Shown here: piece after piece, positions 1,303 to 26,084 of the stretch
How the letters are laid out: every line of letters begins with the position of its first letter
Numbering within the stretch: the stretch's first letter is position 1
IMG/VR virus record: IMGVR_UViG_3300033144_000944
Span: 1-26,084 of that record
Length of the DNA stretch: 26,084 nucleotides
Origin: a virus
Strand: one strand, 5' to 3'
Notes under the pieces: generated by a model
What the model was told of the DNA's origin: nothing
Databases searched by the model: none
Seen by the model: only the letters and a program-made list of their open reading frames with translations
Position numbers and translations under genes: made by a program

Positions 1303-3270
1303 ATGCTAACAAAAAACAAAGTTCTAAAACTCAATGTACCCTTCACAAAGGAGTTACATGATGACGACGAAGATAACGAAGAACTTATCATTTCTGGGCT
1401 AGCAAGCACTAACGATGAAGATCGTTCGGGTGATATCATTGCGTCTGATGCCTGGAAGAAAAAGAGCGCGTTAAGAAACTATCTTAAGAACCCTGTTATT
1501 TTAGCTTTTCATGATGATTCTAGACCAATTGGTAAGACTATACATCATGAAATTCAAGAGAACGGGCTAGCTATTACAGCTAAGATTAGTAAATCAGCAG
1601 GCGATATTTTAGACCTAATCAAAGAGGGAATACTTTCCGCTTTTAGTGTTGGGTTTATGATTAAAGATGCAGACTTCGACCCTAAATCAGGGATTTTTAT
1701 GATTAAGGAAGTAGAACTTTTCGAAGTTAGTGTTGTTTCTATACCTGCTAATCAAAACGCACTTTTCAGTGTAGAGAAAAACTTCTCTAATCCTGAAGAT
1801 TACAAAGAGTTTAGGAATCAATTTATCAAAAATGAGGAAACTTTAATGGAAGATAAAACCGACAAAAAAGTAGAGCAAAAAATCGATCTAGCCGTATTAG
1901 CCGCTGAAATTTCTGCGCAAATTAAGGGCGACCTTAAAGCCGAAGAAAAAGCTGTAGCTGAGGCAGAAAAAGCAGCTCAGGATGAAGTTGCAAAGATGGA
2001 CGCTACTGCTACAACAGCTGCTGAACGAGTTATTAAAGACTTACGTACAGAGCTAGATGAAAATAACGCTTCCTTCACGGAAGCACTAGAGGGTATCAGA
2101 GATGCACTTAAGAAAGAAGCTGATGATGGAGAAATTCAAAAAGCTTTAAGCGCTGAAATCACAGACAGTAAAATGTCATTCGCGGATGTTAAGTCTAGTA
2201 TTGAACAAATACCTCAAGGCACACGTGATGGTATGATGTATGCCTCTAAGATTTTCGGTTGCAAAATCGAAGATACAAAGACTTTCAAAAACTTAGTTAC
2301 TAAGTCTAATATGGAACATTGGGACTCCGGTGTTACAGGTGAGTGGGAAGATGAGTATTCAACCCGTGTACAAAATGCTCTACGTGAGCAACTAGTAGTA
2401 GAACCCCTATTTACTAGTATCGCGATGACTACGCCTACTCTAAATATGCCGATTAACCCAGAAGCTGGTGACGCTACTTGGGTGCATAGTAATGCATTCC
2501 GCTCAAGCGGTAACCCTGCTGCTGAAACCGGTGATGGTACAGATACATCAACTGGCGCGGCTCAAAACCACCAAATTGATGAACAAGTGTTGATTGCTTA
2601 CAAGCTTGCAACACGTGAGTACATCGGTTATGAAGAAGAAGAAGATAGTATTGTAGCTCTTGCTCCAATCATCACAGACGCAGTTGTTCGCAGAATGGCT
2701 CGTGCTTCTGACCTATCTTTCCTACGCGGTGGAGGTGTTCTAACATCTGCAGCTTTTGATCCTATTCTAGGACTAGAAGGCCGTGGCGCTCTAACTACTG
2801 ATGTAACAATCGCTGGTGCAGCAGCTTGGGAAGCTAACTTAACAGAAGATGTAGTAGCTACAATGCGTAGAAACCTAGTACTTTACGGTATTGATTCTTC
2901 ACAATTAGTACTATTAGTATCTCATGACCTTTATTACGGTCTAATGACACTACCTCTGTTCAAATCTGTTGCAGAGTACGGCCCACAAGCGGCTACCGTT
3001 CACGTTGGTGAAGTAGGTAGTATCTTTGGTGTTAAAGTACTTGTATCACAAATGTTCGATAACGCAGCTATTACAACTGGAACATTAACAACAACACTTG
3101 GAATCATGTGTCGTCCAGCTAACTTCATACGAGGTGAGCTACGCGGAATCATGACTGAGGCTGATCGTGATATCATCAACCAGAAACGAGTTCTTGTTTC
3201 TAGTCGTAGATTTGCGTTCAACGATATTATCACAGGCCAAGGTACTGTGAACTTAGAAATCTCTTCTTAA
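1303..3270 (+). CDS. Fused prohead protease and HK97-fold major capsid protein
   Basis: One 655-residue protein joins two normally separate head proteins. Residues about 25-160 are an S78-type prohead protease: catalytic His is probably H70 (ILAFHDDSRPIGK) and catalytic Ser S115 (LSAFSVGF), followed by the typical ELFEVSVVSIPANQNALF. Residues about 182-280 are charged, Ala/Glu/Lys-rich and likely coiled coil, matching the scaffold (delta) domain that the protease removes. From about 300 onward is the HK97 capsid fold, with DSGVTGEWEDEYS, then TPTLNMPINPEAGD, and a C-terminal segment describing subunit contacts. GAGG at 1290-1293 precedes the ATG by 9 bases. A second start inside the gene (ATG 1846) may make a 474-residue scaffold-capsid form. 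A strong terminator follows. Protease-capsid fusions are known in some phages; the exact maturation cleavage site cannot be read here. Confidence 0.9.
   Translation: MLTKNKVLKLNVPFTKELHDDDEDNEELIISGLASTNDEDRSGDIIASDAWKKKSALRNYLKNPVILAFHDDSRPIGKTIHHEIQENGLAITAKISKSAGDILDLIKEGILSAFSVGFMIKDADFDPKSGIFMIKEVELFEVSVVSIPANQNALFSVEKNFSNPEDYKEFRNQFIKNEETLMEDKTDKKVEQKIDLAVLAAEISAQIKGDLKAEEKAVAEAEKAAQDEVAKMDATATTAAERVIKDLRTELDENNASFTEALEGIRDALKKEADDGEIQKALSAEITDSKMSFADVKSSIEQIPQGTRDGMMYASKIFGCKIEDTKTFKNLVTKSNMEHWDSGVTGEWEDEYSTRVQNALREQLVVEPLFTSIAMTTPTLNMPINPEAGDATWVHSNAFRSSGNPAAETGDGTDTSTGAAQNHQIDEQVLIAYKLATREYIGYEEEEDSIVALAPIITDAVVRRMARASDLSFLRGGGVLTSAAFDPILGLEGRGALTTDVTIAGAAAWEANLTEDVVATMRRNLVLYGIDSSQLVLLVSHDLYYGLMTLPLFKSVAEYGPQAATVHVGEVGSIFGVKVLVSQMFDNAAITTGTLTTTLGIMCRPANFIRGELRGIMTEADRDIINQKRVLVSSRRFAFNDIITGQGTVNLEISS
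1834..1848 (+). promoter_or_regulatory. Internal ribosome binding site and ATG for capsid-only product
   Basis: Inside the protease-capsid gene, GAGGAAA begins at 1834 and is followed after 8 bases by an in-frame ATG at 1846 (Met182). The same GAGG motif and a similar spacing precede the starts at 1303, 5991 and 7267. Met182 falls exactly at the boundary between the protease and the coiled-coil scaffold segment. Initiation here would supply scaffold-capsid subunits in excess over protease, which a head needs. That both products are made is inference. Confidence 0.5.
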
Positions 3271-12000: not shown

Positions 12001-13502
12001 TAGCTCAGGCTGTATCTAATAGAAATGCAGCTCAAACTATAGTAGATAGCAGCAGTAAAGCAAATCTAGCAGACGCGGAAGCGACCTTAGCTGTATTTGA
12101 GGCAGAAGTAAGATCTTTAATAGAAAGGGGTAGAGTACTAGCTGCAAGTACTAAGAGAGAACAGGAAAGGCTAAAAATAGTTAGAGAAGTAATAAGTAAC
12201 GATCAAGCTATACTGGCGGCAAGAAAATCTGTATCAAATATCAACAAAAAATTAGTCACTAGCACTGTAGCTTTCCTAGCCGAATCAAAAAAGATTTTCC
12301 TATTAGATAAGCAAAGATTAGCTAATAGTGTAAAAGATATAGAAGCTAGAAAGGAACAAATTTTAATAGAACAAGACGCGGGCCCTTCTCGCGAAAGAGC
12401 CTTAGCTTTAGAAGAAGAAAAACTACTAGTATTAGAAGCTCAATCTAGAGAACTAGAACGTCAACAAATGAGCCGTAGAGCTAGAGAGGATGAACAAATC
12501 GGGGGTCTTACTGTATTTTCTGAAGAGGGTATAGGGAAAACTGTGGATTTCTTTATCATAGCTATGCAACAGGGTGTCAATAAACTAAAAAGCACCTTCG
12601 AAATACTAGGAAAAGGTTTTGCGGATACTATTAATGCTACCTTCGATAAAGCGGTAGACAACTTACTGGAGGGCGGCCACGACTTTGGGCGTGCAGTAAT
12701 AGAAACCTTGAAAGAGGGATTAAGGGAAACTTTTGGGGAAGCATTAAAGTCCAGAATTAGAGATTCATTGAATACTATATTTAGCTCTGGTAGAGGAGAC
12801 GAAAGTTTAAATAAACAACTACAAGCCTCTGAACAACTTACTTCAACTACTAAATTAAATACTTTTGCCTTAAACAAACTTACTACAGAACTTAAGGGTA
12901 ATAGTGTACTTCCCAGTGGAGTAAAACCTGTCGAACAGGCTAAAGATTCAATTATAGCGCCTTTAAGTGATGTTTTAAGTGATAAATTAAATTTCGGAAA
13001 AACAGAAGATACTTTAGCAAGTATACAAGGTGTACTTGGTGAATCTAAAGATATAACTAAACAAGGCTTCTTAGATAATATAAAAACGTTAGGATTACTA
13101 TTATTTGAAATGATTAAACAGGGTGCGAAAGCAATAGCTGGGGGTATAGGTTCGCTCTTTGGATTCGGTACTGGTGGTATTGCATCTGGAGGTTTCTCAA
13201 GTATACCTAAATTAGCCGCTGGCGCGATAGCTACTGGTCCAAATTTAGCTTTAATAGGTGAAGGTAGTAGAAATGAGGCGGTAGTACCACTACCCAATAA
13301 TAGAGAGATTCCCGTAGATCTAAAGGGTGCCGTAGGAGATACTGTAAACATCGAACAAAACTTTGATTTCCGAGGGGCCTCAACTGACGCTATACCACTA
13401 TTAAGACAAGAAGCAAGAGCTATAGAAGATAGAACATTCGCTAGAGTATTTTCAGAAATCAACCGTGGCGGTAGAGCTGCACAAATAACAGGACGTAGAT
13501 AA
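9072..13502 (+). CDS. Tail tape measure protein
   Basis: A 1476-residue protein that fixes tail length and is threaded into the host during DNA injection. With the usual value of about 0.15 nm per residue the tail would be near 200 nm. It starts at GTG 9072 (AGGAAA 9061-9066 upstream), inside the end of the T frame. The N-terminal part has the family's Ala/Lys-rich helices and a hydrophobic segment at about residues 74-96; further hydrophobic stretches lie at about 284-306 and 536-572. Residues about 860-1180 are long coiled coil with many K/E/R. The C-terminus shows the classical GTGGIASGG ... PNLALIGEGSRNEAVVPLP signature. No lysozyme or peptidase motif is visible. Its stop overlaps the next ATG. 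Confidence 0.95.
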   Translation: MAQVDLKVFLKAVGIKPTTKDLKALNAQMGITEKKTRAVSKSAGELDRNIKGTAQITSNTTKAFAKQSQGMGGLIQSYAIVAAHVFALSAAFLVLRRTADLSSMIKSAENFSTRFGVSVTRITKQMQEASGGALSFAEALPIINKAVSAGVPIEKMEALTKAATKAAQTFGGSATEALNRFISASQRGRVEIIQTLGVVIKTEDAYKRYAAQIGKTALELSAFDRQQAILNATIEASQSVFDGVKIDPNPFQQLLTTIIDLKDSFGVLLTDFLTPMIDLFNKSKLAAAGFIGVIIQIVSSQLFSGAGQFFKGVAASGQKATREVRALGKASEEVAKKRAAANKLVATGSTKSLKREVSTFENAQRKKVNAHADFVKKILTQEGKLNKGVLSGRTLALQANIANLKKGGKGVKGLGSIESSQRQLAVLKELALREKIVGTSAVAKGFDRQAAAAKRLTGTLAVLSAKHGTLNISVKKVTSDIKTGFAQGFQIAEGRVRKSMRGMLVGWKKFGRGMTQGTQGINTNLSNLGKAVGRTGGIIAGIGSKILSNLGLYIFAFTILKSAYTFLVDALNKVTPEQKLINDATEDFKEGMEAANVTLAKGIELWGDKAPSSLKEFGDSFTFIGGIFESVANEVNRFSQKSVKALDGLTVDGALKELNKLNARSQELRASPKQEFALGLPEEGTTTTISLEARRELTQTTLAAEKLNSTLIGIGQADILSSLINQFKSATGFAEDLGIVYTEVFLESAKVFSGLNSEIGVFNALQLRGLAVAGDWDALRSRVSELKEEFKDNGAALVLLNTLTIKFFSSASGEITSLSRSAANSLKQLQEVSVNFNTFQLGLEKLKSQKSPFKEVFGFAISAERALRDLIEVQNVAPSKTLEEAFATGEISKDLEGIAALLGSGKLTLKEAVAEAERQRKIFQEQLEFQLLGTKRLKVLSTDLATLKLKEIKSDEARLSIITAIESKEKDINTQKLAQAVSNRNAAQTIVDSSSKANLADAEATLAVFEAEVRSLIERGRVLAASTKREQERLKIVREVISNDQAILAARKSVSNINKKLVTSTVAFLAESKKIFLLDKQRLANSVKDIEARKEQILIEQDAGPSRERALALEEEKLLVLEAQSRELERQQMSRRAREDEQIGGLTVFSEEGIGKTVDFFIIAMQQGVNKLKSTFEILGKGFADTINATFDKAVDNLLEGGHDFGRAVIETLKEGLRETFGEALKSRIRDSLNTIFSSGRGDESLNKQLQASEQLTSTTKLNTFALNKLTTELKGNSVLPSGVKPVEQAKDSIIAPLSDVLSDKLNFGKTEDTLASIQGVLGESKDITKQGFLDNIKTLGLLLFEMIKQGAKAIAGGIGSLFGFGTGGIASGGFSSIPKLAAGAIATGPNLALIGEGSRNEAVVPLPNNREIPVDLKGAVGDTVNIEQNFDFRGASTDAIPLLRQEARAIEDRTFARVFSEINRGGRAAQITGRR

Positions 13503-14110
13503 TGGCAGCAATAGCTTTTCCTAGTATAGAGGCAGAGATACAAGATTTTGGTATATCTTATAATACACAAGTATCAAGTTCAGATATAAGTGGTGTTACA
13601 CAAACCGTAGAATTACCAGGTGCACGGTGGGCAGGTAGTCTTAGTTATAGAGATATGACAGTAGTCGAATCCGCAACTCTAAAAAAGTTTTTATTGCAGT
13701 TAAGGGGTTCCTCGGGAAGATTCTTTTACGGAGATCGTACTCATACTGATCCATTTAATGTTGTAACTGGTAGCCCAACTGTAACGGTTGTAGCGGGTAA
13801 TAGAGGATTGATAAGAGTAACGTTGGGGGGTGGAAGCCCTGTATTCTCCCCCGGAGACTTCATTCAGATAGGTATCGATGACCAAAGAGAATTAAAGATG
13901 GTTCTAGCTTCAGCTATTGTATCGGGGGATACACATGAGCTAACTATAGAACCTTTAATAAGAAGAAATATTTATTCAGGGCAAAACGTAGTATATACTA
14001 GTCCTACAGGGGTATTTATGTTAAGTGCAAGTGATCAGGCTAAATGGGCATCAAGAACTAAGGCTCAATTATCTGATATGAGTATAAGTTTTATAGAGGT
14101 ATTCTCGTGA
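13502..14110 (+). CDS. Distal / minor tail protein, lambda M-like position
   Basis: A 202-residue protein directly after the tape measure, where lambda has gpM and gene transfer agents have the distal tail protein. The N-terminal half (PGARWAGSLSYRDMT, ATLKKFLLQLRGSSGRFFYGD) resembles distal tail proteins, in which a W, a central helix and a 'G-x-FxxGD' loop recur; the middle (residues about 88-150) is a beta domain with FSPGDFIQIGIDD; the end (KAQLSDMSISFIEVFS) returns to the first fold. It probably forms the ring between the tube and the hub. The ATG is at the end of the tape measure gene (1-base overlap) and its stop overlaps the next GTG, a sign of coupled translation. Confidence 0.7.
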   Translation: MAAIAFPSIEAEIQDFGISYNTQVSSSDISGVTQTVELPGARWAGSLSYRDMTVVESATLKKFLLQLRGSSGRFFYGDRTHTDPFNVVTGSPTVTVVAGNRGLIRVTLGGGSPVFSPGDFIQIGIDDQRELKMVLASAIVSGDTHELTIEPLIRRNIYSGQNVVYTSPTGVFMLSASDQAKWASRTKAQLSDMSISFIEVFS

Positions 14111-15162
14111 TAAAGACCGTTAACTCTACAGTACAAGCTTCACTAGATAGTGAGAGTTTAGCTGGTGTAGTATTGGCTAAATTAGATTTTAGCCCTGCTG
14201 TAAGGTATACTAATGCTTATCAAAGTATTTACTGGGACGAAGCCGGTGGTGGAGAATTAGAGTATATAGGTCTAGGAAATCTGGCAAGTATGTCCGTACT
14301 TAATGAGACTAGTGAGTTGGGTGCTACTACTATTCAATTAACTTTATCTGGTATTCCTAATGCTTCTATTACAGATATATTTAGTAATGAATATATTGGT
14401 AAACCCCTACAAGTATGGTATGCTACACTTGATAAAGATACTTATGCAGTAGAAGGGGGACAAAATGGCCCAGTACTATTATTTGCAGGTAGAATGGATT
14501 TTGGTAATATAGAATTTGGGGAAACAGCAACAATAACAGTAAATGCAACTTCTAGGCTAGCAGATTGGGAAAGACCAAGGGGTGGACGATTTAATCATGC
14601 CTACCAAACTAGACACGTAGATGCTACTGATTTAGGTTTTAGGTGGGTTCAGGGTATACAAGATAAAATAATAAGTTGGGGTGGGGTTACTGTTGGAGAT
14701 CCTGGTAATGGTCAAGATGATAGATTTAACGATATGTGCCCACATTGTTGCTTTACACCTGATACACTTATTACAATGGCTGATGGAACTACACAAACAA
14801 TCAATTTAGTACAATTAGGTGATTGGATTAAAGTAGTAACGGGTGTGGAAGAAGTGACTGATATTATTACAAGAACAAACCGTCTTATGTATAAAATTAC
14901 TTTTGAAGATAATACAATATTGAAAGCTTCTGAAGATCACCCACTATTTGTAGAGCATAAGGGTTTTGCTTCTATCAATCCAGATCCTAATATTAGTTAT
15001 AAAGATCTTGGAGTTGCGAAACAGTTAGAAGTTGGAGACAGTGTAAAAACTGTAACTGGAGATACAGTTAAAATTATAGAAATGAAAACTATTCATTATC
15101 CAGAAACGGTGTATACATTTAGTAATTCGCGATTCTATGCAAATGGTGCACTAGTATACTAA
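14107..15162 (+). CDS. L-like tail hub protein with C-terminal Hint (intein-like) domain
   Basis: A 351-residue two-part protein. Residues 1-214 look like the minor tail/hub proteins at the lambda gpL position (or the DUF2163 type of gene transfer agents): SLAGVVLAKLDF, LSGIPNASITDIFSNEYIGKPLQVW, LLFAGRMDFGNIEFGE, SRLADWERPRGGRF and TDLGFRWVQGIQDKIISWGG. Residues 215-351 are a Hint domain: C215 begins block A (CFTPDTLITMADG), GD follows at about residue 238, block B carries H278 in SEDHPLFVE, and the final block is VYTFSNSRFYANGALVY. It ends there, without the His-Asn and C-extein of splicing inteins. A CPHC motif (211-214) stands immediately before C215. The start is GTG overlapping the previous TGA; the stop overlaps the next ATG. 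Autoprocessing is predicted, not shown. Confidence 0.85.
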   Translation: MIKTVNSTVQASLDSESLAGVVLAKLDFSPAVRYTNAYQSIYWDEAGGGELEYIGLGNLASMSVLNETSELGATTIQLTLSGIPNASITDIFSNEYIGKPLQVWYATLDKDTYAVEGGQNGPVLLFAGRMDFGNIEFGETATITVNATSRLADWERPRGGRFNHAYQTRHVDATDLGFRWVQGIQDKIISWGGVTVGDPGNGQDDRFNDMCPHCCFTPDTLITMADGTTQTINLVQLGDWIKVVTGVEEVTDIITRTNRLMYKITFEDNTILKASEDHPLFVEHKGFASINPDPNISYKDLGVAKQLEVGDSVKTVTGDTVKIIEMKTIHYPETVYTFSNSRFYANGALVY

Positions 15163-15563
15163 TGAAGAATTTAACTGATATTATATATCAATATAAAGAC
15201 ACAGAATTTAGTTGGGGAAATTTAGATTGCTGTATATTTACTGTAAAAGTAGTTGAAGAATACAAAGACATAACTCTTCCACTTTGGAGAGATGTAGTAA
15301 CATATAAAAAAGAAAAGGGAGCAATGAAAGCTTTAATTAAATTAGGATGTAAAAGTATAGTAGATTTACCCTCTATTATTTTAAATACACCTAAAAAAGA
15401 TATTTCACAAGTAAAATTAGGTTACCCAGTATACTATATTAATGAAGACAACATTGGTATACTTGGTGTATGCAATGGTGTTAGAACTTACTTCTTACAA
15501 AAAGGTGGGGGTCTAACAGCTAGAAATACGCAGGACTGTAAATATTGTTGGAGTATTGATTAA
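15162..15563 (+). CDS. K-like tail tip protein with WGxxDC motif (DUF6950-like)
   Basis: A 133-residue protein at the lambda gpK position, between the L-like and J-like genes. FSWGNLDCCIFTVKVVEEY (about residues 17-35) is the WGxxDC start of NlpC/P60-type peptidase folds, with C23 or C24 as the would-be nucleophile. The rest (VKLGYPVYYINEDNIGILGVCNGVRTYF, then GGGL and CKYCWSI at the end) follows the pattern I associate with the DUF6950 family. The His usually seen in GHVGI of active NlpC/P60 enzymes is Asn here (DNIGI), so peptidoglycan hydrolysis is uncertain. It overlaps both neighbours by one base. Family assignment is from memory of the pattern. Confidence 0.7.
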   Translation: MKNLTDIIYQYKDTEFSWGNLDCCIFTVKVVEEYKDITLPLWRDVVTYKKEKGAMKALIKLGCKSIVDLPSIILNTPKKDISQVKLGYPVYYINEDNIGILGVCNGVRTYFLQKGGGLTARNTQDCKYCWSID

Positions 15564-18500
15564 TGGTAACTGCAGCAGTTTTAGTAAATCTTTTTGTTGG
15601 TGGCGGAGCAGTAGCCGCGGCAGGTTTTGCGGGCATAGGTTTTGCAATTGGAGCTATAGTAATCAATTTAGCTATAGCTGCTTTACTGGGGAAAATATTA
15701 GCACCAGATGCACCTAAAAGTGGTAGAGATACTAAGGGTATACAAAATGTAATTCGTAGCAATATAATGCCACGTAGAATTATATACGGAGAAGCTGTAA
15801 CTGGTGGACCCTATGCTGTATTAGAAACTATAGGTATTACTAATAGTATATTAAATATGGTTGTAGTAATATCTGCTCATCCTGTAGAAGATATTATTGG
15901 TGTATTTATAGATGACCAATACGTAAATATATCGGGTAAAACTAGTGGTTCTACCAATATTGATTCTAATGATTTAGATGTTAATTATTTCCTAAATACT
16001 GGGAAGTTTGGTACCGGTGCGGCCGAAGAGCACGTTAAAATTATTAAAGTTAATGGTTGGGGATTTGCAGATAATCAATATGTAACTGATGGGGGAACAT
16101 CTACAGAAGCTGCGAGAGATAGAATTAAGGCCGGTTTAATACAAACCGCATTAACTACAGCATGGGGTGGAGCAGGAGCAACTAGAGACAGCGGTACAGG
16201 TTTATATACAGATAGTGGATATAAACTTACTAACTGTGCATATATTTTTGTAAGTATTAAATTCAACAGAGATGTGTGGTCTGGTTTTCCAAGATTAAAA
16301 TTTCATGTAAAAGGTAAAAGACTTTATAATCCTGAACAAGATCCAACAAACTTCACGGCAGAAGGGGCTGACGTTGGTGGTACTCATGTATTAAATGATC
16401 CCGATACATATACATGGTCTGAAGATTGGTCGTTAAGTATATTAGATTATCTATTAAATACTTCCTACGGTTTGGGAGCAAAAATTTCAGGAACATTAAT
16501 AGAGATAAATTGGACAGAAATGATCCAATCTGTTTTGGATTCTTCGGCGGTTGTTGATACTGGAATCGATGCGGCCACCTCAGCTAGATACACAACTAAT
16601 GGAGTACTAGAAACTAATAGTACTCCTATTTCAAATATGGAAGCGATGCTTACTTCTGGGGGAGGAGAGTTAATATATGCACAAGGTGCTTATAAATTAC
16701 GTCCAGCTATATACAGATTACCGGACTCAATAAATGATATCATAAACGAAGATATGATGGTATCCCCTTTAAGTATAAGAACACATACCCCTAGAGGGGA
16801 CTTGTTTAACAAAGCTGCTGGAGTATTTACGGATAAAGGTACTCTACCTCTTAGACCTAAGTTTGAACCTTCAGATTTTACAATAGTAGATCCATTAGAT
16901 AGTTCTGGACTTAATCCTTTTGAAGTAATTGACGATGAAGAGATAATAAGAGAGTTTGACTTCCCCTTCACAATTAGGGATTTTGAAGCGCAAAGACTTG
17001 CTAGAATACAGTTAGAAAGGGTTAGAAGAGGTTTGGCAGTTACTTTTGAAGCTAACTTAAAAGTATTGAAATTTTCAGTAGGGGACACTGTATACTTAGA
17101 AGTTCTTAGTAATTCTAAGTATGCTAATGAAAGCTTTTTTAATAGGCTAGGCTTAGATGATACAGTACAAAATCGTCCAGAGGCGCCTTTTACCGCATAC
17201 TATAAACAATTCAAAATAGTAGATATGCAGTATACCAAAGATGCAACAATTGAAGTATCAATGATTGAAGAAGCAGAAGAAATATATGACTGGAATGATG
17301 GGGACGCTAGTGCTACACCTAATGCTTTAGAATCAGAAATTATAGCAGATGATCCAACCGGCGTTGTATTACAACCGGATTGGTTTGTAGCTAGTCCACT
17401 GACTGTATTTACAGAAGTCACATCTGCTACTTCGGGTTCCACAGTTACTACTTTAGTAAGATGGAATGCAGCAACTAGGGGTACATTGATAAATGCTGTA
17501 GATCAAGTACATATATCTTTCTACACTCTAGAATATGGCATAGTTACCAATCCTTCTCTAGTAGGGGAACTTAGAGTAGATACTTGGATTCCTGCGGGAA
17601 ATAAAACTTCTGATCATAGTCAAATTTTACAGGGGCCCATCCCTTTAGAAACTTTATTTAAAGACGCAGCAGAATACGATTTTAGAGTTTCTGCCACTAC
17701 TTATGGTGGTAGAACATCTCTTTGGGCTTACCATAGTACAGATATTGGAACAGATTATCTTCCTGGAACTCCTCCAGCTTCGGTTGTAGATACTTTCTAT
17801 ATTAAACCTATAAATGGTACCGCTATAAAAAATGGTTTAGGTACTCTAACTGTAGAGGCTCATTCTATTGTAGGTGGAATAGATACTTTACTTTCAGCAG
17901 GTACTATTCAATTATATGTGGGAACTACCTTAGTAGAGGTAGCTTCTCCCGGTAACTTTACATCTCCTTCAGATGGCTATACTGGCACGTTTGATATAGA
18001 TGATATAACAGGTAGTATAATAGTAGAATTAAAAGATGGTCCAGCAGGAACTATTCTAGATACTATTACACTTGTAGATATTGATGATGGGTTAGCTGGG
18101 GGGGACGCATTTTACGGATATATAGAAGCAACTAATGGTTTAGCTTGGACTCAAGCAACTAATGGTGGAGCTTGGAATCCCGGATCACCTACTACTCAAC
18201 TTGACTTCACTGTAGTTCAAAATGGGAATATAGTAGCTCAAGATGCTTATTTAGTTACTAGAGATGCAGCAGGATTATTAACTGGAAGCGCGGCCACTCA
18301 CAGTGTTTCACCGGGAGATTTTGCCGATTCACCTGGAAATATAGCTATAGTTCCTAGTGGTAGTGGAACTCAAGCTTTTACTGTAGTATTTGAATATACT
18401 AATGGGACGGACGGAATCTCAGTAGGAGAAACAGTACTTACATCTGTGGGGGCAGATGATGGTATTGCAGGTGGCACTGGTGTAGCGGTACGTCATGTTA

Positions 18501-18664
18501 ATATGTATAATCTTAATGATAATACTGTAGCAGATCCTACTGGGGGCACCTTTGCTATACCAATCTCAGGCACTAACGCTAGTGATGGTTGGACATTAAA
18601 TGTAATGCATCTTCACCACAGGATCCTAGTTGGTCTTCTACCTCTATATATGCTACAAGAGTAG
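15563..18664 (+). CDS. J-type host specificity protein / central hub (N-terminal portion, frame interrupted)
   Basis: The 1033-residue tail tip protein of the lambda J / COG4733 type. Residues about 5-45 are Gly/Ala-rich and hydrophobic (membrane-like, as in such proteins where it may fuse the role of gpI). Then RRIIYGEAVTGGPYAVLE, a typical family motif, hub domains including WSLSILDYLLNTSYGLGA and EAQRLARIQLERVRRG, and after residue about 620 fibronectin-like and repeat domains. The true coding sequence appears to leave this frame near 18605, inside repeat unit A; the last 20 residues before the stop are out-of-frame. The natural continuation is read in another frame up to about 19075 and then again in this frame as the gene that ends at 24730. 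Confidence 0.85.
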   Translation: MVTAAVLVNLFVGGGAVAAAGFAGIGFAIGAIVINLAIAALLGKILAPDAPKSGRDTKGIQNVIRSNIMPRRIIYGEAVTGGPYAVLETIGITNSILNMVVVISAHPVEDIIGVFIDDQYVNISGKTSGSTNIDSNDLDVNYFLNTGKFGTGAAEEHVKIIKVNGWGFADNQYVTDGGTSTEAARDRIKAGLIQTALTTAWGGAGATRDSGTGLYTDSGYKLTNCAYIFVSIKFNRDVWSGFPRLKFHVKGKRLYNPEQDPTNFTAEGADVGGTHVLNDPDTYTWSEDWSLSILDYLLNTSYGLGAKISGTLIEINWTEMIQSVLDSSAVVDTGIDAATSARYTTNGVLETNSTPISNMEAMLTSGGGELIYAQGAYKLRPAIYRLPDSINDIINEDMMVSPLSIRTHTPRGDLFNKAAGVFTDKGTLPLRPKFEPSDFTIVDPLDSSGLNPFEVIDDEEIIREFDFPFTIRDFEAQRLARIQLERVRRGLAVTFEANLKVLKFSVGDTVYLEVLSNSKYANESFFNRLGLDDTVQNRPEAPFTAYYKQFKIVDMQYTKDATIEVSMIEEAEEIYDWNDGDASATPNALESEIIADDPTGVVLQPDWFVASPLTVFTEVTSATSGSTVTTLVRWNAATRGTLINAVDQVHISFYTLEYGIVTNPSLVGELRVDTWIPAGNKTSDHSQILQGPIPLETLFKDAAEYDFRVSATTYGGRTSLWAYHSTDIGTDYLPGTPPASVVDTFYIKPINGTAIKNGLGTLTVEAHSIVGGIDTLLSAGTIQLYVGTTLVEVASPGNFTSPSDGYTGTFDIDDITGSIIVELKDGPAGTILDTITLVDIDDGLAGGDAFYGYIEATNGLAWTQATNGGAWNPGSPTTQLDFTVVQNGNIVAQDAYLVTRDAAGLLTGSAATHSVSPGDFADSPGNIAIVPSGSGTQAFTVVFEYTNGTDGISVGETVLTSVGADDGIAGGTGVAVRHVNMYNLNDNTVADPTGGTFAIPISGTNASDGWTLNVMHLHHRILVGLLPLYMLQE

Positions 18665-19435
18665 ATGGAGTAATAGGTCTTACCGGTCAAGCGGTACGTC
18701 ATGTTAATATGTATAATCTTAATGATAATACTGTAGCAGATCCTACTGGGGGCACATTTAATACCCCAATCTCAGGCACTAATGCTAGTGATGGTTGGAC
18801 ATTAAATGTACCATCTTTGGCCTCAAATGGGGACATAGTATATGTAACTACTAGAACATTTACAAATGATGCCGGATCTCCACAAGACCCTAGTTGGTCA
18901 TCTACTTCTATATATGCCCAAAGAACTGATGGTGCTACCGGTGCTACTGGTGTAGCAACTCGTCATGTTAATATGTATAATCTTAATGATAATACTGTAG
19001 CAGATCCTACTGGGGGCACCTTTGCTATACCAATCTCAGGCACTAACGCTAGTGATGGTTGGACATTAAATGTACGACGATGCATCCTCTCCTCAAGACC
19101 CTAGTTGGTCAGCTACTTCTATATATGCTACAAGAGTAGATGGAGTAATAGGTCTTACCGGTCAAGCAGTACGTCATGTCAACATGTATAATCTTAATGA
19201 TAATACTGTAGCAGATACTGCTGGGGGCACATTTAATACCCCAATCTCCGGCACTAATGCTAGTGATGGTTGGACATTAAATGTACCATCTTTAGCATTA
19301 GATGGAGATATAGTATATGTAACTACTAGAACATTTACAAATGATGCTGGATCTCCACAAGATCCTGCTTGGTCAGCCACTTCAATTTATGCTCAAAGAA
19401 CGGATGGAGCTACTGGTGCTACTGGTGCTACAGGA
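18491..19435 (+). repeat. Four tandem repeat units A-B-A'-B' in the tail fibre
   Basis: Units begin at CGTCATGT at 18491, 18697, 18961 and 19172. B (18697-18960) and B' (19172-19435) are full length, 264 bases or 88 codons. A is 206 and A' 211 bases because both lack the part after TTAAATGTA that encodes PSLA..GDIVYVTTRTFTND. The first 114 bases of A and A' (18491-18604, 18961-19074) are identical, while their right halves differ at many silent sites. The encoded module carries RHVNMYNLNDNTVAD, SGTNASDGWTLN and SPQDPxW, with a linker that in B becomes collagen-like (GATGATG). Confidence 0.92.
18589..19104 (+). pseudogene. Middle segment of the J/fibre gene, out of frame
   Basis: About 160 codons between the two frame breaks. 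It reads ASSPQDPSWSSTSIYATRVDG, then one complete repeat unit (RHVNMYNLNDNTVADPTGG ... NVPSLASNGDIVYVTTRTF ... SIYAQRTDGATGATG) and the start of a third. The nominal start is a TTG inside the first unit with no ribosome site, and the last residues (RRCILSSRP) are out-of-frame, so this is not a separate gene. It is the central part of one long coding sequence that has been split by deletions of about 58 and 53 bases in the units on each side. Either the gene is genuinely broken here or the assembly has lost sequence at repeats. Confidence 0.7.
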
Positions 19436-22400: not shown

Positions 22401-24730
22401 CATCGGTTACAGGTGGTGTAGGTATTGATTCAACAGGGGGTACTACTCCAAGTATCACATTAGATGTTTCTGAATTAGGTCTCGGTGGTACATTACTTGC
22501 AACTGATCATCTTGTAGCTGCTAATGCTTCAGTAAGTAATCGTCAAGTAATTTCATCTATACCATTAAGTATATTTAATAATAATTCTGGTTGGACAAGT
22601 AATACTGGTACAGTAACAAGTGTTACAGGTGGCACAGGTGTAGATTCAACAGGGGGTACTACTCCAAGTATCACATTAGATGTTAACGAGTTAGCAGTTG
22701 GTGGTACACTACTTGCAACTGATCACCTTATAGCTGCTAACTCTACAGTAAGTAATAAACAATTAATATCATCTATTCCACTAAGTATTTTTAATGATGA
22801 TATAGGTGCTGGCGGAGCTTTCCTTCCTTTAGCTGGTGGCGCACTGACAGGTGCCACAAGCATCTCTGCTCAGTTTACGGTCTTACCACAGAACCTGATA
22901 ATGCTAGATGCTGATGCAACGACACTTCGTTCGTATATTGCAACGAAAGACGTAGCAGGAGTAGAGCGTAAGATTCTGGTTCGTGGTTCCTCACTCGATA
23001 GAATTAACATATCGAACGTGAACTTCGATACGAACATTCAGTACAAGACCCTTTTGATGTTCAATGGGTCGGAGAACCTCACGATTGGTGGTGACCTCAA
23101 TATAGGGGGTGACGCTACAGGTCACTTTGAAACTGTTAGTGGGATAGAAGGTTCTGTACAAGCTGACGGAAAGGAAGGTTCCACTGGATTTTTTGCAGGT
23201 TACTCTGTTGGTAATAGATCTGGATTCTACGATAACGCCGGAACGTTGACAACTAATCAGATTGGCATATACGATCAACTGAATACTCAGTATGTTCTAA
23301 GGTATAACGGTGACGCGTCTAGCCATCGTGTAGCTCTTTACAATGACGGCACATTAAAATTTCAGACCTTAACAACTGGAGTCCTGGTTGTAGGAGATGT
23401 AGGTGCAACAACCTTTAATGGTGGAACTCTTTCAGGTTCAAATACTGGAGATAATACAGTTAACACCAGCGTAAACCTATCCGACTACTCTGGTGACGCA
23501 GACTCGGCAACCACTCGTGGTAACCGTCGTGTCAATAGCACAGCAACTAACATGCCTACGGCTAGTACCTTCTGGTCTATGATGACGTATGGCAATGGTT
23601 CAAATGTTGCTGCTCAGTTAGCTACACATTTTACGACTGGTGACACTTACGTTAGAGCATTCAATACGGTATGGTCTTCTTGGACCCAACTAGGTTCTGG
23701 CTCAGTAGCGTTTAATGATTTGACCAGTAAGACAAGTGGCACAGGTAATTACACAACTACAGGTGACTTCACCGCAGACAACTTCGAAGCTACTGGTCTT
23801 GGACCGAACAGTACTCCAGGAACTGATGATTCTTACTTTGGCGGGTATGGAGTGTTGGGTAGTCGTGCTAGTACTACTTACGTCAGTAATGTTGCTGGAG
23901 CCGTCTCACTAAATCACACTGGCATTCACGGCACTAATATAAAACTCGCAACGACTACAACTGGTGTTGCTATAACGGGGGGTATTACGGTTACGTCAAC
24001 TACGCTGGTAACCAATCTAAATGCTGACAGACTTGACAGTGTTCACGGCTCTTCATTCCTACGATCAGATGCTGCGGATCAGAAGACCTCCGGCAACCTA
24101 AGATTCAATGACAACATTCAGTTGAATTTTGGTAATGGGGACGACGTTGATATGTACTTTAGTGGCGTAGACTTCTTTATTGATATGCCAGCTACGACAT
24201 CAGACTTTAGAGTGCGTGGTGGCACTGGTGGCACTGAAGTAATGTTTGCTGGTATCGCAAACGGTCAGGCTATAATGTATTACAATGGTCTCCCCGGTAT
24301 TCAGACTCAAAGTCATACGGCAACGGGTAACACTTCAGGGGGCACGGTTACAGATCATGAGAATAGTCCTAGAGACTTGGGATTCAATGATGTTAAAGTC
24401 ACTGACAATAACCCTGCTTCCGTAACCCTTGCGGCAAACCAGTGTGGTTCCTCAATCGTGATGGATGACAACACAGCATTCACAGTTACGCTGCCAGCAT
24501 CGACCGGACTAGATTTCCCAGTGGGGGGAATGACTATACTTATTAATGCTAATACTTCAGCAGTTAATATGACTATAGTGGACACAGCCTCTGCTACTTG
24601 TTACTATATGAGCGGTACTGCTAGGACTGATATTGCGGGTACTGCTACATTGGGTCCGGGTGGAGTTGCTACTATATACAGACAAGAAGCGGCCATATTT
24701 TTAATCTGGGGAACAGGTATAACACCATGA
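19070..24730 (+). CDS. Long repeat-rich tail fibre (C-terminal portion of the J/fibre gene)
   Basis: An 1886-residue open frame, in the same frame as the J-type gene. Its first ATG lies inside repeat unit A' without a ribosome site. It begins with the end of the repeat array and a collagen-like GATGATGATGADG stretch. GGRGGLKIAGDEIAANSIIANN (about residues 220-245) resembles the I-A-G-x-I/A-N-x-I pattern I associate with J-protein C-terminal regions, which supports one continuous J/fibre protein of about 3,000 residues. Further on come a 322-base duplicated module, three copies of a TGGxGxDSTGGxTPxITLDV / SxKQLISSIPLSIF module, and a terminal beta-rich tip ending IFLIWGTGITP. No S74 peptidase chaperone domain is visible. 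It probably forms the receptor-binding central fibre. The stop overlaps the next ATG. Confidence 0.8.
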   Translation: MYDDASSPQDPSWSATSIYATRVDGVIGLTGQAVRHVNMYNLNDNTVADTAGGTFNTPISGTNASDGWTLNVPSLALDGDIVYVTTRTFTNDAGSPQDPAWSATSIYAQRTDGATGATGATGADGSVGWGHDLIFSVGSSPDDPALVVQWTSGTIWTAAGLTFPIDAGDTGVMSARTFIYFNGASPIPTTMSLTTSAVTSVGLDKILVAVAENTTTEAFFQVFGGRGGLKIAGDEIAANSIIANNVNASFFTGRTFQTRALLSEQTSPFSTNPRASMHEGGFTLQDAEDNSVFEADATDGHLIVGGTSDINNISATSIQGWAQSAIDAIADRLGTVGPTNPTGGSFTFASLPLDIPGTSDATITGDTPTSGVLSHKGGETVSLSCRVYDATFGFFSTNQNFVSPSYDVQFRRAVSPYTVWGDIGAPQTVTGTSLNVFDQEIAKWECSFRINTTALMTDVTGVDATDYKYRAVVSYNSGSFSAISRITAFTYAEPIFGDAAEGNVSNTGTPLDNQIAIWTNSTTIEGVTNLTYDGTDFDVNANLFIGGDAIGHFETVSGVEGSVQADGKEGSTGFFAGYAVGNRSGFFDNVGTLTTNQIAVYDQLNAQYVLRYNGDASSHRVALYNDGTLKFQTLTTGVLVVGDVGASTFSGVALTTAGAATNFLDETGAYSVPGGTGGTVTTVSVVSANGISGTVATATTTPAITLALDDITPESIVITPASPQNFTEISSSIGTFFIRPANGILSVSKSGTQSRVRAYGPTAGGFLYTSITHNDTDGWVESNTGVLNVVGDSDVVIRTQGNEPTITCTSGGAVTIKHNVSAKFATTSTGVAITGGLTTTTTVAATGNVTGANLSGSNTGDNAGVTAVTGGTGVDSTGGNTPDITLDVAELAVGGTLLATDHLIAANAAVSNKQLISSIPLSIFNDDIGAGGGGTVGGTGTDNFLAVWNGTANIDAGDSFLVTNAVDKSAVEAIAGAWSFSGLNTVTGGSLRFNDGVDCIFGTTSDVAINFNGVTTFDIQMISGVDFLLRGGSAGSKPMIDASSNSHVALYWNGSVKFITQTTGVGITGTLAATTVTGANVTTGADPGHTHTTASITGLSGTNTGDNAGVTSVTGGVGIDSTGGTTPSITLDVSELGLGGTLLATDHLVAANASVSNRQVISSIPLSIFNNNSGWTSNTGTVTSVTGGTGVDSTGGTTPSITLDVNELAVGGTLLATDHLIAANSTVSNKQLISSIPLSIFNDDIGAGGAFLPLAGGALTGATSISAQFTVLPQNLIMLDADATTLRSYIATKDVAGVERKILVRGSSLDRINISNVNFDTNIQYKTLLMFNGSENLTIGGDLNIGGDATGHFETVSGIEGSVQADGKEGSTGFFAGYSVGNRSGFYDNAGTLTTNQIGIYDQLNTQYVLRYNGDASSHRVALYNDGTLKFQTLTTGVLVVGDVGATTFNGGTLSGSNTGDNTVNTSVNLSDYSGDADSATTRGNRRVNSTATNMPTASTFWSMMTYGNGSNVAAQLATHFTTGDTYVRAFNTVWSSWTQLGSGSVAFNDLTSKTSGTGNYTTTGDFTADNFEATGLGPNSTPGTDDSYFGGYGVLGSRASTTYVSNVAGAVSLNHTGIHGTNIKLATTTTGVAITGGITVTSTTLVTNLNADRLDSVHGSSFLRSDAADQKTSGNLRFNDNIQLNFGNGDDVDMYFSGVDFFIDMPATTSDFRVRGGTGGTEVMFAGIANGQAIMYYNGLPGIQTQSHTATGNTSGGTVTDHENSPRDLGFNDVKVTDNNPASVTLAANQCGSSIVMDDNTAFTVTLPASTGLDFPVGGMTILINANTSAVNMTIVDTASATCYYMSGTARTDIAGTATLGPGGVATIYRQEAAIFLIWGTGITP
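20701..21022 (+). repeat. Fibre repeat module, copy 1 of 2
   Basis: This segment matches 23101-23422 at an exact offset of 2400 bases with no gap and only scattered, mostly silent differences. It encodes IGGDA.GHFETVSG, then VQADGKEGSTGFFAGY, VGNRSGF, QYVLRYNGDASSHRVALYN and TLTTGVLVVGDVGA. Both copies are richer in C-ending codons than their surroundings, suggesting that the module moved as a block. Confidence 0.93.
21632..22816 (+). repeat. Three copies of an STGG / LISSIPLSIF fibre module
   Basis: Copies lie at about 21632-21864, 22371-22590 and 22607-22816. Each encodes VT.VTGG.G(V/I)DSTGG.TP.ITLDV.EL..GGTLLATDHL(I/V)AAN..VSN(K/R)Q(L/V)ISSIPLSIF. The first is separated from the second by about 500 bases of other fibre sequence; the second and third are nearly adjacent. 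The repeats are in frame and diverged mostly at silent positions. They are probably trimeric beta-repeats of the fibre shaft and are substrates for recombination. Confidence 0.9.
23101..23422 (+). repeat. Fibre repeat module, copy 2 of 2
   Basis: Second copy of the module at 20701-21022. The length is the same, so both copies stay in frame. Differences include A-to-S, V-to-A and A-to-G changes in the VGNRSGF(F/Y)DN(V/A)GTLTTNQI(A/G) part. Preserved spacing and mainly synonymous changes indicate a functional structural unit maintained after duplication. Confidence 0.93.
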
Positions 24731-25608
24731 GTATGAGTGTTTATCCCGTGTGTAATGCAGCACAACAGGGTTCCGTTGCCCCCCCACTGGTTAGTGCGTT
24801 AGGAAATGGGGATACTAATTCTGCTATTCTGTCCTCAGTTAAAGTAGGTGTGAGATTTGCTACTGATGGTGAGGAATATGAATTCCTTGCATCGGGTCCG
24901 CCTACTGCAACTATTGGTACTTGGCTGGATCAAGGTGTTTCTAGTGATGTCTGGGTTGAACACTTACGCACATCTGGAACCGAGACTAGATTTGCCGATC
25001 ATCCTAATGCAACGCGCATTAACATAGCCTTAAACGCAAATTTTACACTTACAGATACCACTACAGGTGATGGTGCGAAGACCATCACAGGAACCTTTAA
25101 GTTCTGGGATGCAGCTAGTGGGGGTAACGTTTTAGATACTACGTCAAGTGCCCAATATTCGGCAAATAGACTTGTTGATATGTGTCCTACTTGTTGTTTC
25201 ACACCTTGGACGCTCATTACTATGGCCAATGGATTAATGGCCAGAATTGTTGATATAAGGGAGGGGGATTTAATACAGGTTGAAGACGGGGTAGAGCCGG
25301 TTAAAAGTATTATTACACGTACAAATCGTGTTATGTACCGAATTACATTTGCCGATGGTAGAGGATTAGAGTTGTCAGAGGATCACCCACTATATGTAGA
25401 GGGTAAAGGTTATTCTGCAATTAATCCGGATCCCGGTATAGACTATAAAGACTTAGGTATTGCTGAACCTCTTTTAATAGGGGACAAGGTAAGAGATGTG
25501 GCAGGTAACTCTACTGCTATTAAAATCATAGATTGTATTGAATATCCTAGCACAGTTTATACTCTTGAGAATTCCAAATTCTACGCTAATGGATTACTGG
25601 TATACTAA
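24727..25608 (+). CDS. Small tail-associated protein with C-terminal Hint (intein-like) domain
   Basis: A 293-residue protein that starts in the last codons of the fibre gene (4-base ATGA overlap). Residues 1-152 are a beta-rich domain I do not recognise, with FATDGEEYEFLASG, VWVEHLRTSGTETRF and FWDAASGGNVLDTTSSAQYS. A CPTC motif (153-156) then leads into a Hint domain, C157 to Y293: block A CFTPWTLITMANG, GD at about residue 180-181, H220 in SEDHPLYVE and the final VYTLENSKFYANGLLVY. This domain has the same length (137) as the one in the L-like protein and about 58% identical residues by my hand alignment (80 of 137, ungapped). It too lacks the terminal His-Asn. The position behind the fibre gene suggests a tip or fibre accessory protein. 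Confidence 0.8.
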   Translation: MSMSVYPVCNAAQQGSVAPPLVSALGNGDTNSAILSSVKVGVRFATDGEEYEFLASGPPTATIGTWLDQGVSSDVWVEHLRTSGTETRFADHPNATRINIALNANFTLTDTTTGDGAKTITGTFKFWDAASGGNVLDTTSSAQYSANRLVDMCPTCCFTPWTLITMANGLMARIVDIREGDLIQVEDGVEPVKSIITRTNRVMYRITFADGRGLELSEDHPLYVEGKGYSAINPDPGIDYKDLGIAEPLLIGDKVRDVAGNSTAIKIIDCIEYPSTVYTLENSKFYANGLLVY

Positions 25609-25609
25609 T

Positions 25610-26084
25610 ATGGCAGGCATTTGTTTCTATTATGAAAATTCAAACATAGATATATGTTCGGGAAAGGATTTGTTTGCATGGGACTACAATTGTAGGGCTG
25701 CCGAAGATATTGACAAGATGATTGTAATTAATCTGGCTAACTCTGTCCCCGAGAACCCCGGAGAGACTACAGGACGAACATATGATTTTAAGGTAGTACA
25801 ATCACTAGAACAAGCAGAATTACTCATGAAAGGGGACCGTATTACACAAGTTGTATGTCCTTGGAATTTTGATCAACAAGTCACAGAGTTGTGGGATTAT
25901 GATCACGAAACCGACTGGTACGTATTTGGTCCCGCACAAGGTTGGAGAGGTTATGATATGTATACTAACAAGATATCAATACCTGTATCTGAAGAATCGC
26001 CTATGTTCTCAGTTCATTCTGCAACTGTTATTCTTACCCATAGGTATAAAATAAATATAATTACAAAGCAACACGCTTTAAATA
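25610..26084 (+). CDS. Unrecognised protein, 3' end outside the window
   Basis: An open frame starts at ATG 25610, one base after the stop of the Hint gene, and remains open for 158 codons to the window edge. It begins MAGICFYYENSNIDICSGKD and contains NCRAAEDIDKMIVINLA, RITQVVCPWNFDQQVTELWD, then DWYVFGPAQGWRGYDM and FSVHSATVILTHRYK. The composition is that of a soluble globular protein with several Cys and Trp. I do not recognise a family. The codons are used naturally and it follows the preceding gene immediately, so it is a real gene in the same unit. The product may be non-structural, since the tail genes appear to end here. Confidence 0.75.
   Translation, partial: MAGICFYYENSNIDICSGKDLFAWDYNCRAAEDIDKMIVINLANSVPENPGETTGRTYDFKVVQSLEQAELLMKGDRITQVVCPWNFDQQVTELWDYDHETDWYVFGPAQGWRGYDMYTNKISIPVSEESPMFSVHSATVILTHRYKINIITKQHALN

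Follow-up and report, generated by a model that had tools for sequence, protein, structure and literature searches.

The window analysed here is a stretch of 26,084 nt from a viral contig (IMG/VR record IMGVR_UViG_3300033144_000944). In this window, a tail hub gene runs into a Hint domain that ends in Val-Tyr-stop, where inteins have His-Asn followed by an extein. Hint domains are known from intein splicing, from the attachment of cholesterol to Hedgehog and from the conjugation of ubiquitin-like proteins. The question was what such a domain does at the end of a tail protein. The features of the hub gene and its neighbours are:

13502..14110, + strand: distal tail protein (phrog_1302), directly upstream of the hub
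14107..15162, + strand: gpL-like tail hub gene with C-terminal Hint cassette (351 aa, GTG start)
14107..14703, + strand: hub body, residues 1–199 (phrog_2048 match; complete alone in Hint-less relatives of 188–221 aa)
14737..14748, + strand: C211-P-H-C214, cysteine motif directly before Cys1 (positions -4 to -1)
14749..15159, + strand: hub Hint domain, residues 215–351 (137 residues)
14749-14751, + strand: hub Cys1, C215
14938-14940, + strand: codon of H278, the His of block B (S-E-D-H)
15133..15159, + strand: block G, FYANGALVY, without His-Asn
15160..15162, + strand: stop directly after Tyr351
15162..15563, + strand: DUF6950 protein, directly downstream of the hub

The preliminary description had named the upstream part a tail hub, and this held. 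The phrog_2048 'tail protein' profile matched residues 5–192 (E 3.2e-28), and with the adjoining phrog_1302 gene the hub follows the gene order typical of tail tips; the ORF at 14107-15162 thus shows both marks of a gpL-like hub, profile match and gene order. Its TAA stop overlaps the ATG of the DUF6950 gene, an order also found in Hint-less relatives. Roseobacter phage CRP-406 has the same gene order, and its hub gene is annotated as minor tail protein L. In an AlphaFold model of the full hub, residues 1–211 had a pLDDT <50. The stop is unlikely to be an assembly error, an explanation that was discarded because an independent virus record (L001, 15.7 kb) encodes an identical 351-aa protein with the same stop.

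Two further ORFs of the window deserve mention. The 655-aa ORF at 1303-3270 matched a prohead protease (Peptidase_S78), with an HK97-type capsid match below the cut-off, and is probably a protease-capsid fusion. The end of the 1033-aa tail ORF at 15563-19104 looks out of frame and overlaps an ORF at 18589-19104, possibly due to a frameshift or an assembly error.

The hub C-terminus reads DMCPHC-CFTPDTLITMADG...SEDHPLF...FYANGALVY-TAA. A profile search of residues 215–351 against Hint families, as proposed earlier, gave 31.6 bits for TIGR01445 (intein_Nterm; curated cut-off 24.5) and a sub-threshold match to Pfam Hint (E 2e-5). The AlphaFold model of the cassette (pLDDT 89.8) matched 57 PDB chains at E<=0.001, and all 50 matches listed were Hint folds. 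The top match among those listed was BIL2 of Tetrahymena BUBL1 (TM 0.80, 25% identity), followed by the gp41-1 intein, a Clostridium BIL and, lower, Hedgehog (1at0, TM 0.63). The cassette therefore has the Hint fold, Cys/Ser1 and the block-B T/S-x-x-H of the superfamily, and the assignment as a Hint domain was borne out. The residue numbers C215 and H278 and the Val-Tyr-stop ending were right as well; the span given for it, 14734-15162, begins at M210 and not at Cys1. Hint-bearing proteins named collagen, fibronectin or PASTA are present in the viral structure library, so fusions of Hint domains to fibre-like proteins have already been deposited.

An intein lies between an N- and a C-extein and has a terminal Asn/Gln and a +1 Cys/Ser/Thr. 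Here, the stop directly follows the Hint domain in all 24 cassette genes, and neither residue is present. With no residues for C-terminal cleavage and no C-extein, standard splicing is not possible, as had been claimed for the hub; the same loss was found in all relatives. A conserved His-Asn that might be reached beyond the stop by readthrough or frameshifting was not found in the 24 genes. The nearest hub relatives without Hint (L002, 75% identical, 221 aa; L003, 61% identical, 210 aa) and the hubs of CRP-406 (188 aa) and Vibrio phage K396 (193 aa) show what the gene looks like without it. As Hint-less relatives end where the linker begins, the Hint domain is a C-terminal module and not an intein minus its C-extein. 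An intein with its C-extein elsewhere was rejected, since Hint-less hubs are complete without further sequence. The L002 and L003 virus records (53 and 46 kb, possibly fragments) contained no cassette anywhere, which argues for an accessory element.

The preliminary description missed a second carrier in the same contig and 20 non-redundant relatives. The second carrier comprises:

24727..25608, + strand: distal tail/fibre-type protein (293 aa) with the cassette at its C-terminus
24727..25182, + strand: body, a beta-sandwich-type domain, Hint-less in other phages
25183..25194, + strand: CPTC motif before Cys1
25195..25605, + strand: second Hint domain (Cys1 25195-25197, block-B His 25384-25386)

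The second Hint domain ends in FYANGLLVY followed by TAA and is 58% identical to that of the hub, whereas the partner bodies are unrelated. Both cassettes share the pattern CPxC-CFTP...FYANGxLVY-stop. The beta-sandwich-type body occurs without Hint in two 151-aa neighbours (L134_7 and L152_3; iE 8e-38 and 3e-37); with Hint-less hubs and a Hint-less fibre-domain paralogue in existence, the bodies are complete on their own. In another phage, G008 (L134), the cassette likewise sits on two different proteins. Hence, a Hint domain on a tail hub was correctly described, but it is not peculiar to the hub: it is also carried by the second protein and by unrelated tail/fibre-type proteins in many phages, and an explanation that applies to the hub alone would probably not hold in general. 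A gene beginning MAG[IV]CFYYE follows the second cassette in the window (25610-26083) and in another phage (L129:10429-10818) and is conserved in both; the gene of the window had no Pfam or PHROG match.

The cassette family was collected by scans of viral contigs and one genome scan, and 20 strict Tyr-stop Hints were left after dereplication at 90%. The sole hit of the genome scan (L105) was a 65-kb contig of a Desulfuromonadales MAG. Apart from this uncultured phage, about twenty phage types carry the cassette on tail proteins. It forms the very C-terminal end of several structural proteins that are unrelated to one another: the hub, a beta-sandwich family, a 'AEFGRGNDLNSYRGT' family, YNxGN repeat proteins, proteins with a 540-aa body matching phrog_3677 'protease' and others. 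Among annotated phages (50,697 records), the Tyr-stop family was not found; only inteins and the distant Hints of phages PSTNGR1, JWF and 2-1 were. C-terminal Hints of tail proteins were not found described in the literature searched, which covered few subscription papers.

The aligned cassettes (n=23) were 40–60% identical to the hub copy. Invariant in all of them were Cys(-1), Cys1, the block-B His, an Arg (R256 in the hub), the Asn of 'FYAN' and the final Tyr. The Asp and His of block F and the His-Asn of block G were missing from all 23, and the position of the block-F Asp (F:4) was Thr in most. The N-terminal catalytic residues were thus the same in every relative, as the preliminary description had reported for the hub. 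The final residue was Tyr, followed by TAA or TGA, in 24 of 24 genes. As an ascertainment check, we used a block-B search pattern that is blind to both ends of the cassette; it was present in 22 of the 24 genes, and all 22 had Cys-Cys and Tyr-stop. Cys(-1) was found in 23/23 Tyr-type versus 5/54 His-Asn-type Hints (Fisher p 4e-15, a test that ignores relatedness). The residues before Cys1 read CPxC in most cassettes, and cysteine made up 36% of the five residues before Cys1, compared with 0.9% of the rest of the partner and 0.15% of the Hint domain apart from Cys1. Three of the 23 Tyr-type Hints (L159, L161 and L236, from large phages) end in FYANG[IV]LVYDE[QE]K-stop, also with Cys(-1). Since L159 and L161 were placed among the His-Asn types in the tree, the pairing of Tyr with Cys-Cys may have arisen twice.

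The Hint domain is under strong purifying selection. Its dN/dS between close pairs was 0.009–0.16 and mostly lower than that of the partner (YN00 or NG86; rough estimates, some with saturated dS). Hint and partner also differed in their histories: the Hints of L135/L138 were 99% identical with partners at 59%, those of L144/L147 were 97% identical with partners at 61%, and the pairs L136/L144 and L133/L156 showed the reverse. This uncoupling indicates that the cassette is exchanged as a unit and evolves apart from its partner. The missing His-Asn and C-extein would also be expected of inteins in decay, drifting after the loss of their C-exteins. That origin is highly improbable in view of the purifying selection, the invariant Cys1 and His, the same ending in 24/24 genes, the exchange of modules between partners and the Hint-less homologues that end before the Hint.

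We therefore regard the cassette as probably a modular, C-terminal, self-processing Hint element of phage tail proteins, which is Hedgehog-like with an active N-terminal chemistry. The exact conservation of the N-terminal catalytic set and the exact loss of the C-terminal set, under selection, argue for the N-S acyl shift only. The tail protein would fold together with its own Hint domain, which would then convert the Cys(-1)-Cys1 peptide bond to a thioester in an N-S acyl shift, with the block-B His helping. As the His-Asn and a C-extein are absent, splicing could not resolve this thioester. The attack on it would instead come from outside, with water, a small thiol, or another protein's amine or cysteine as the nucleophile. 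This would remove the Hint domain and leave the tail protein with a new, cysteine-rich end (in most cases CPxC), which would stay free or become linked to the attacker. We infer the thioester, the cleavage and its timing from the fold, the catalytic positions kept and lost, the C-terminal place, the cysteine cluster, the mobility between partners and the purifying selection. With the splicing chemistry lost and the bond-breaking/transfer chemistry kept, the tail proteins of these viruses are probably either trimmed or covalently joined to something else. The free carboxylate of the Tyr could lie near Cys1 and stand in for the missing C-terminal residues. The block-F Asp assists the N-terminal chemistry in inteins (PMC4031507), and with Thr at F:4 in most cassettes this activity could be weak.

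A gene family common to all lineages, as expected of a dedicated partner or acceptor, was not found. We also considered native chemical ligation, with the N-terminal Cys of a phage protein as acceptor, and rejected it: Met/Val/Leu-Cys starts were found in only 9 of 376 ORFs, none of them common to the different lineages. On motifs alone, genes adjoining Hint carriers (L134:10944-12552 and L133:10420-10923) look like those for sulfotransferases and a 2-oxoglutarate oxygenase; their products might modify tail proteins.

What attacks the thioester divides the self-processing model into two sub-cases. The Hint domain may be a removable assembly aid that is cut off by water or a cellular thiol after folding, with nothing attached. 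Taken alone, this sub-case is plausible but less likely than not. It fits the C-terminal position of the cassette on structural proteins in all cases, the repetitive or beta-rich, fibre-like partners, and the lack of both an acceptor gene and an N-terminal-Cys protein common to the lineages. A 137-aa domain at the end of the hub would presumably be bulky in the tail tip, and self-cleaving intramolecular chaperones of tail-spike C-termini offer an analogy. Simple removal leaves unexplained the Cys(-1), the extra cysteines kept in the product and the invariant terminal Tyr. Alternatively, the thioester could react with a lipid, a sugar, or an amine or thiol group on some other protein of phage or host; the preliminary description had named a tail protein, a lipid or a cell-surface amine. 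We consider such a conjugation somewhat unlikely. The C-terminal chemistry is lost as in Hedgehog, the best fold match (BIL2) is a reported maker of isopeptide bonds, and the two carriers per phage, in the window and in G008, could share one acceptor. However, an extension resembling a sterol-recognition region is absent, and no neighbour or acceptor is conserved across lineages.

The main alternative to active N-terminal processing is a purely structural or metal-binding role, in which Cys(-4), Cys(-1), Cys1 and the block-B His bind a metal or form a disulfide and the Hint domain is a non-enzymatic, redox- or metal-sensing tip. The cysteines do cluster at the junction, and the related hub gpL of lambda binds an Fe-S cluster. 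Nevertheless, several members (L148, L150, L157 and L183) lack Cys(-4), the invariant ones among these residues reduce to the catalytic pair and Cys(-1), and a whole Hint domain would not be required for a metal site. Overall, we judge this role improbable.

If self-processing is true, a swappable C-terminal Hint cassette would be a new means by which virions mature or are cross-linked, and might supply small tags for ligation or cleavage in a single reaction. It is conceivable, if rather unlikely, that phages use the cysteine-rich C-terminal tag to ligate hub and fibres covalently to another molecule of the virion or the host surface during assembly or adsorption, with neither ATP nor a separate enzyme. 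The function of bacterial intein-like domains would become testable on purified particles and recombinant proteins.

The inteins of phage terminases, helicases, RNRs and DNA-repair proteins share the Hint fold, Cys1 and block B with the cassette. In contrast, they lie inside conserved genes and have C-exteins and His-Asn, whereas the cassettes are terminal add-ons of tail genes. A separate observation concerns large-phage proteins of about 740–925 aa (L054-L058, L063, L066, L204, L205, L215), which end in two to three tandem complete Hints with junctions LVHN-RACF and LTHN-KACF and a final LVHNK or LVHNKK before the stop. They keep the canonical His-Asn, with a C-flank of one or two residues.

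Like the BIL domains, and BIL2 in particular, the cassette has a Hint fold and no +1 nucleophile, is carried by variable proteins and would use N-terminal thioester chemistry. BIL2 of Tetrahymena BUBL1 is reported to conjugate its upstream protein to lysine via an isopeptide bond, independently of ATP (PMC8616854). Type A BILs keep His-Asn, and type B BILs cleave at their own N-terminal side (PMC7765530, PMC4031507). With neither a C-flank nor a C-terminal His-Asn, the cassette is not of type A. For type B, a lack of the C-terminal motif is described, while the cassette keeps the N-terminal motifs and part of block G (FYANGxLVY). Unlike BILs, it retains block G up to Val followed by Tyr-stop, is always terminal, has an invariant Cys(-1) and is found on phage tail proteins. 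Like the Hedgehog Hog domain, the cassette is a C-terminal Hint with its partner upstream and keeps, by residues and not by activity, N-terminal chemistry only. Hog differs in the sterol-recognition region after the Hint, where the cassette has no residue after block G, and its fold likeness is lower (1at0, TM 0.63).

Among cultured phages, C-terminal Hints occur in tail-region genes of Providencia phage PSTNGR1 (L253:3554-4507; QPB11246.1) and Achromobacter phages JWF (L256:2577-4028; PJWF_00028) and 2-1 (L257:2583-4025). Noted with JWF and 2-1 was a radical SAM-type gene, two genes downstream of such a Hint. These Hints belong to a more distant subfamily, with residues after block G and no Tyr-stop. 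As in the cassette, they sit at the C-terminus of a tail/fibre-region protein and have no block-G His-Asn, and in JWF and 2-1 a Cys-rich stretch (NCNCDCNC..SC) precedes Cys1, similar to the cassette junction. These phages make the question accessible in culture.
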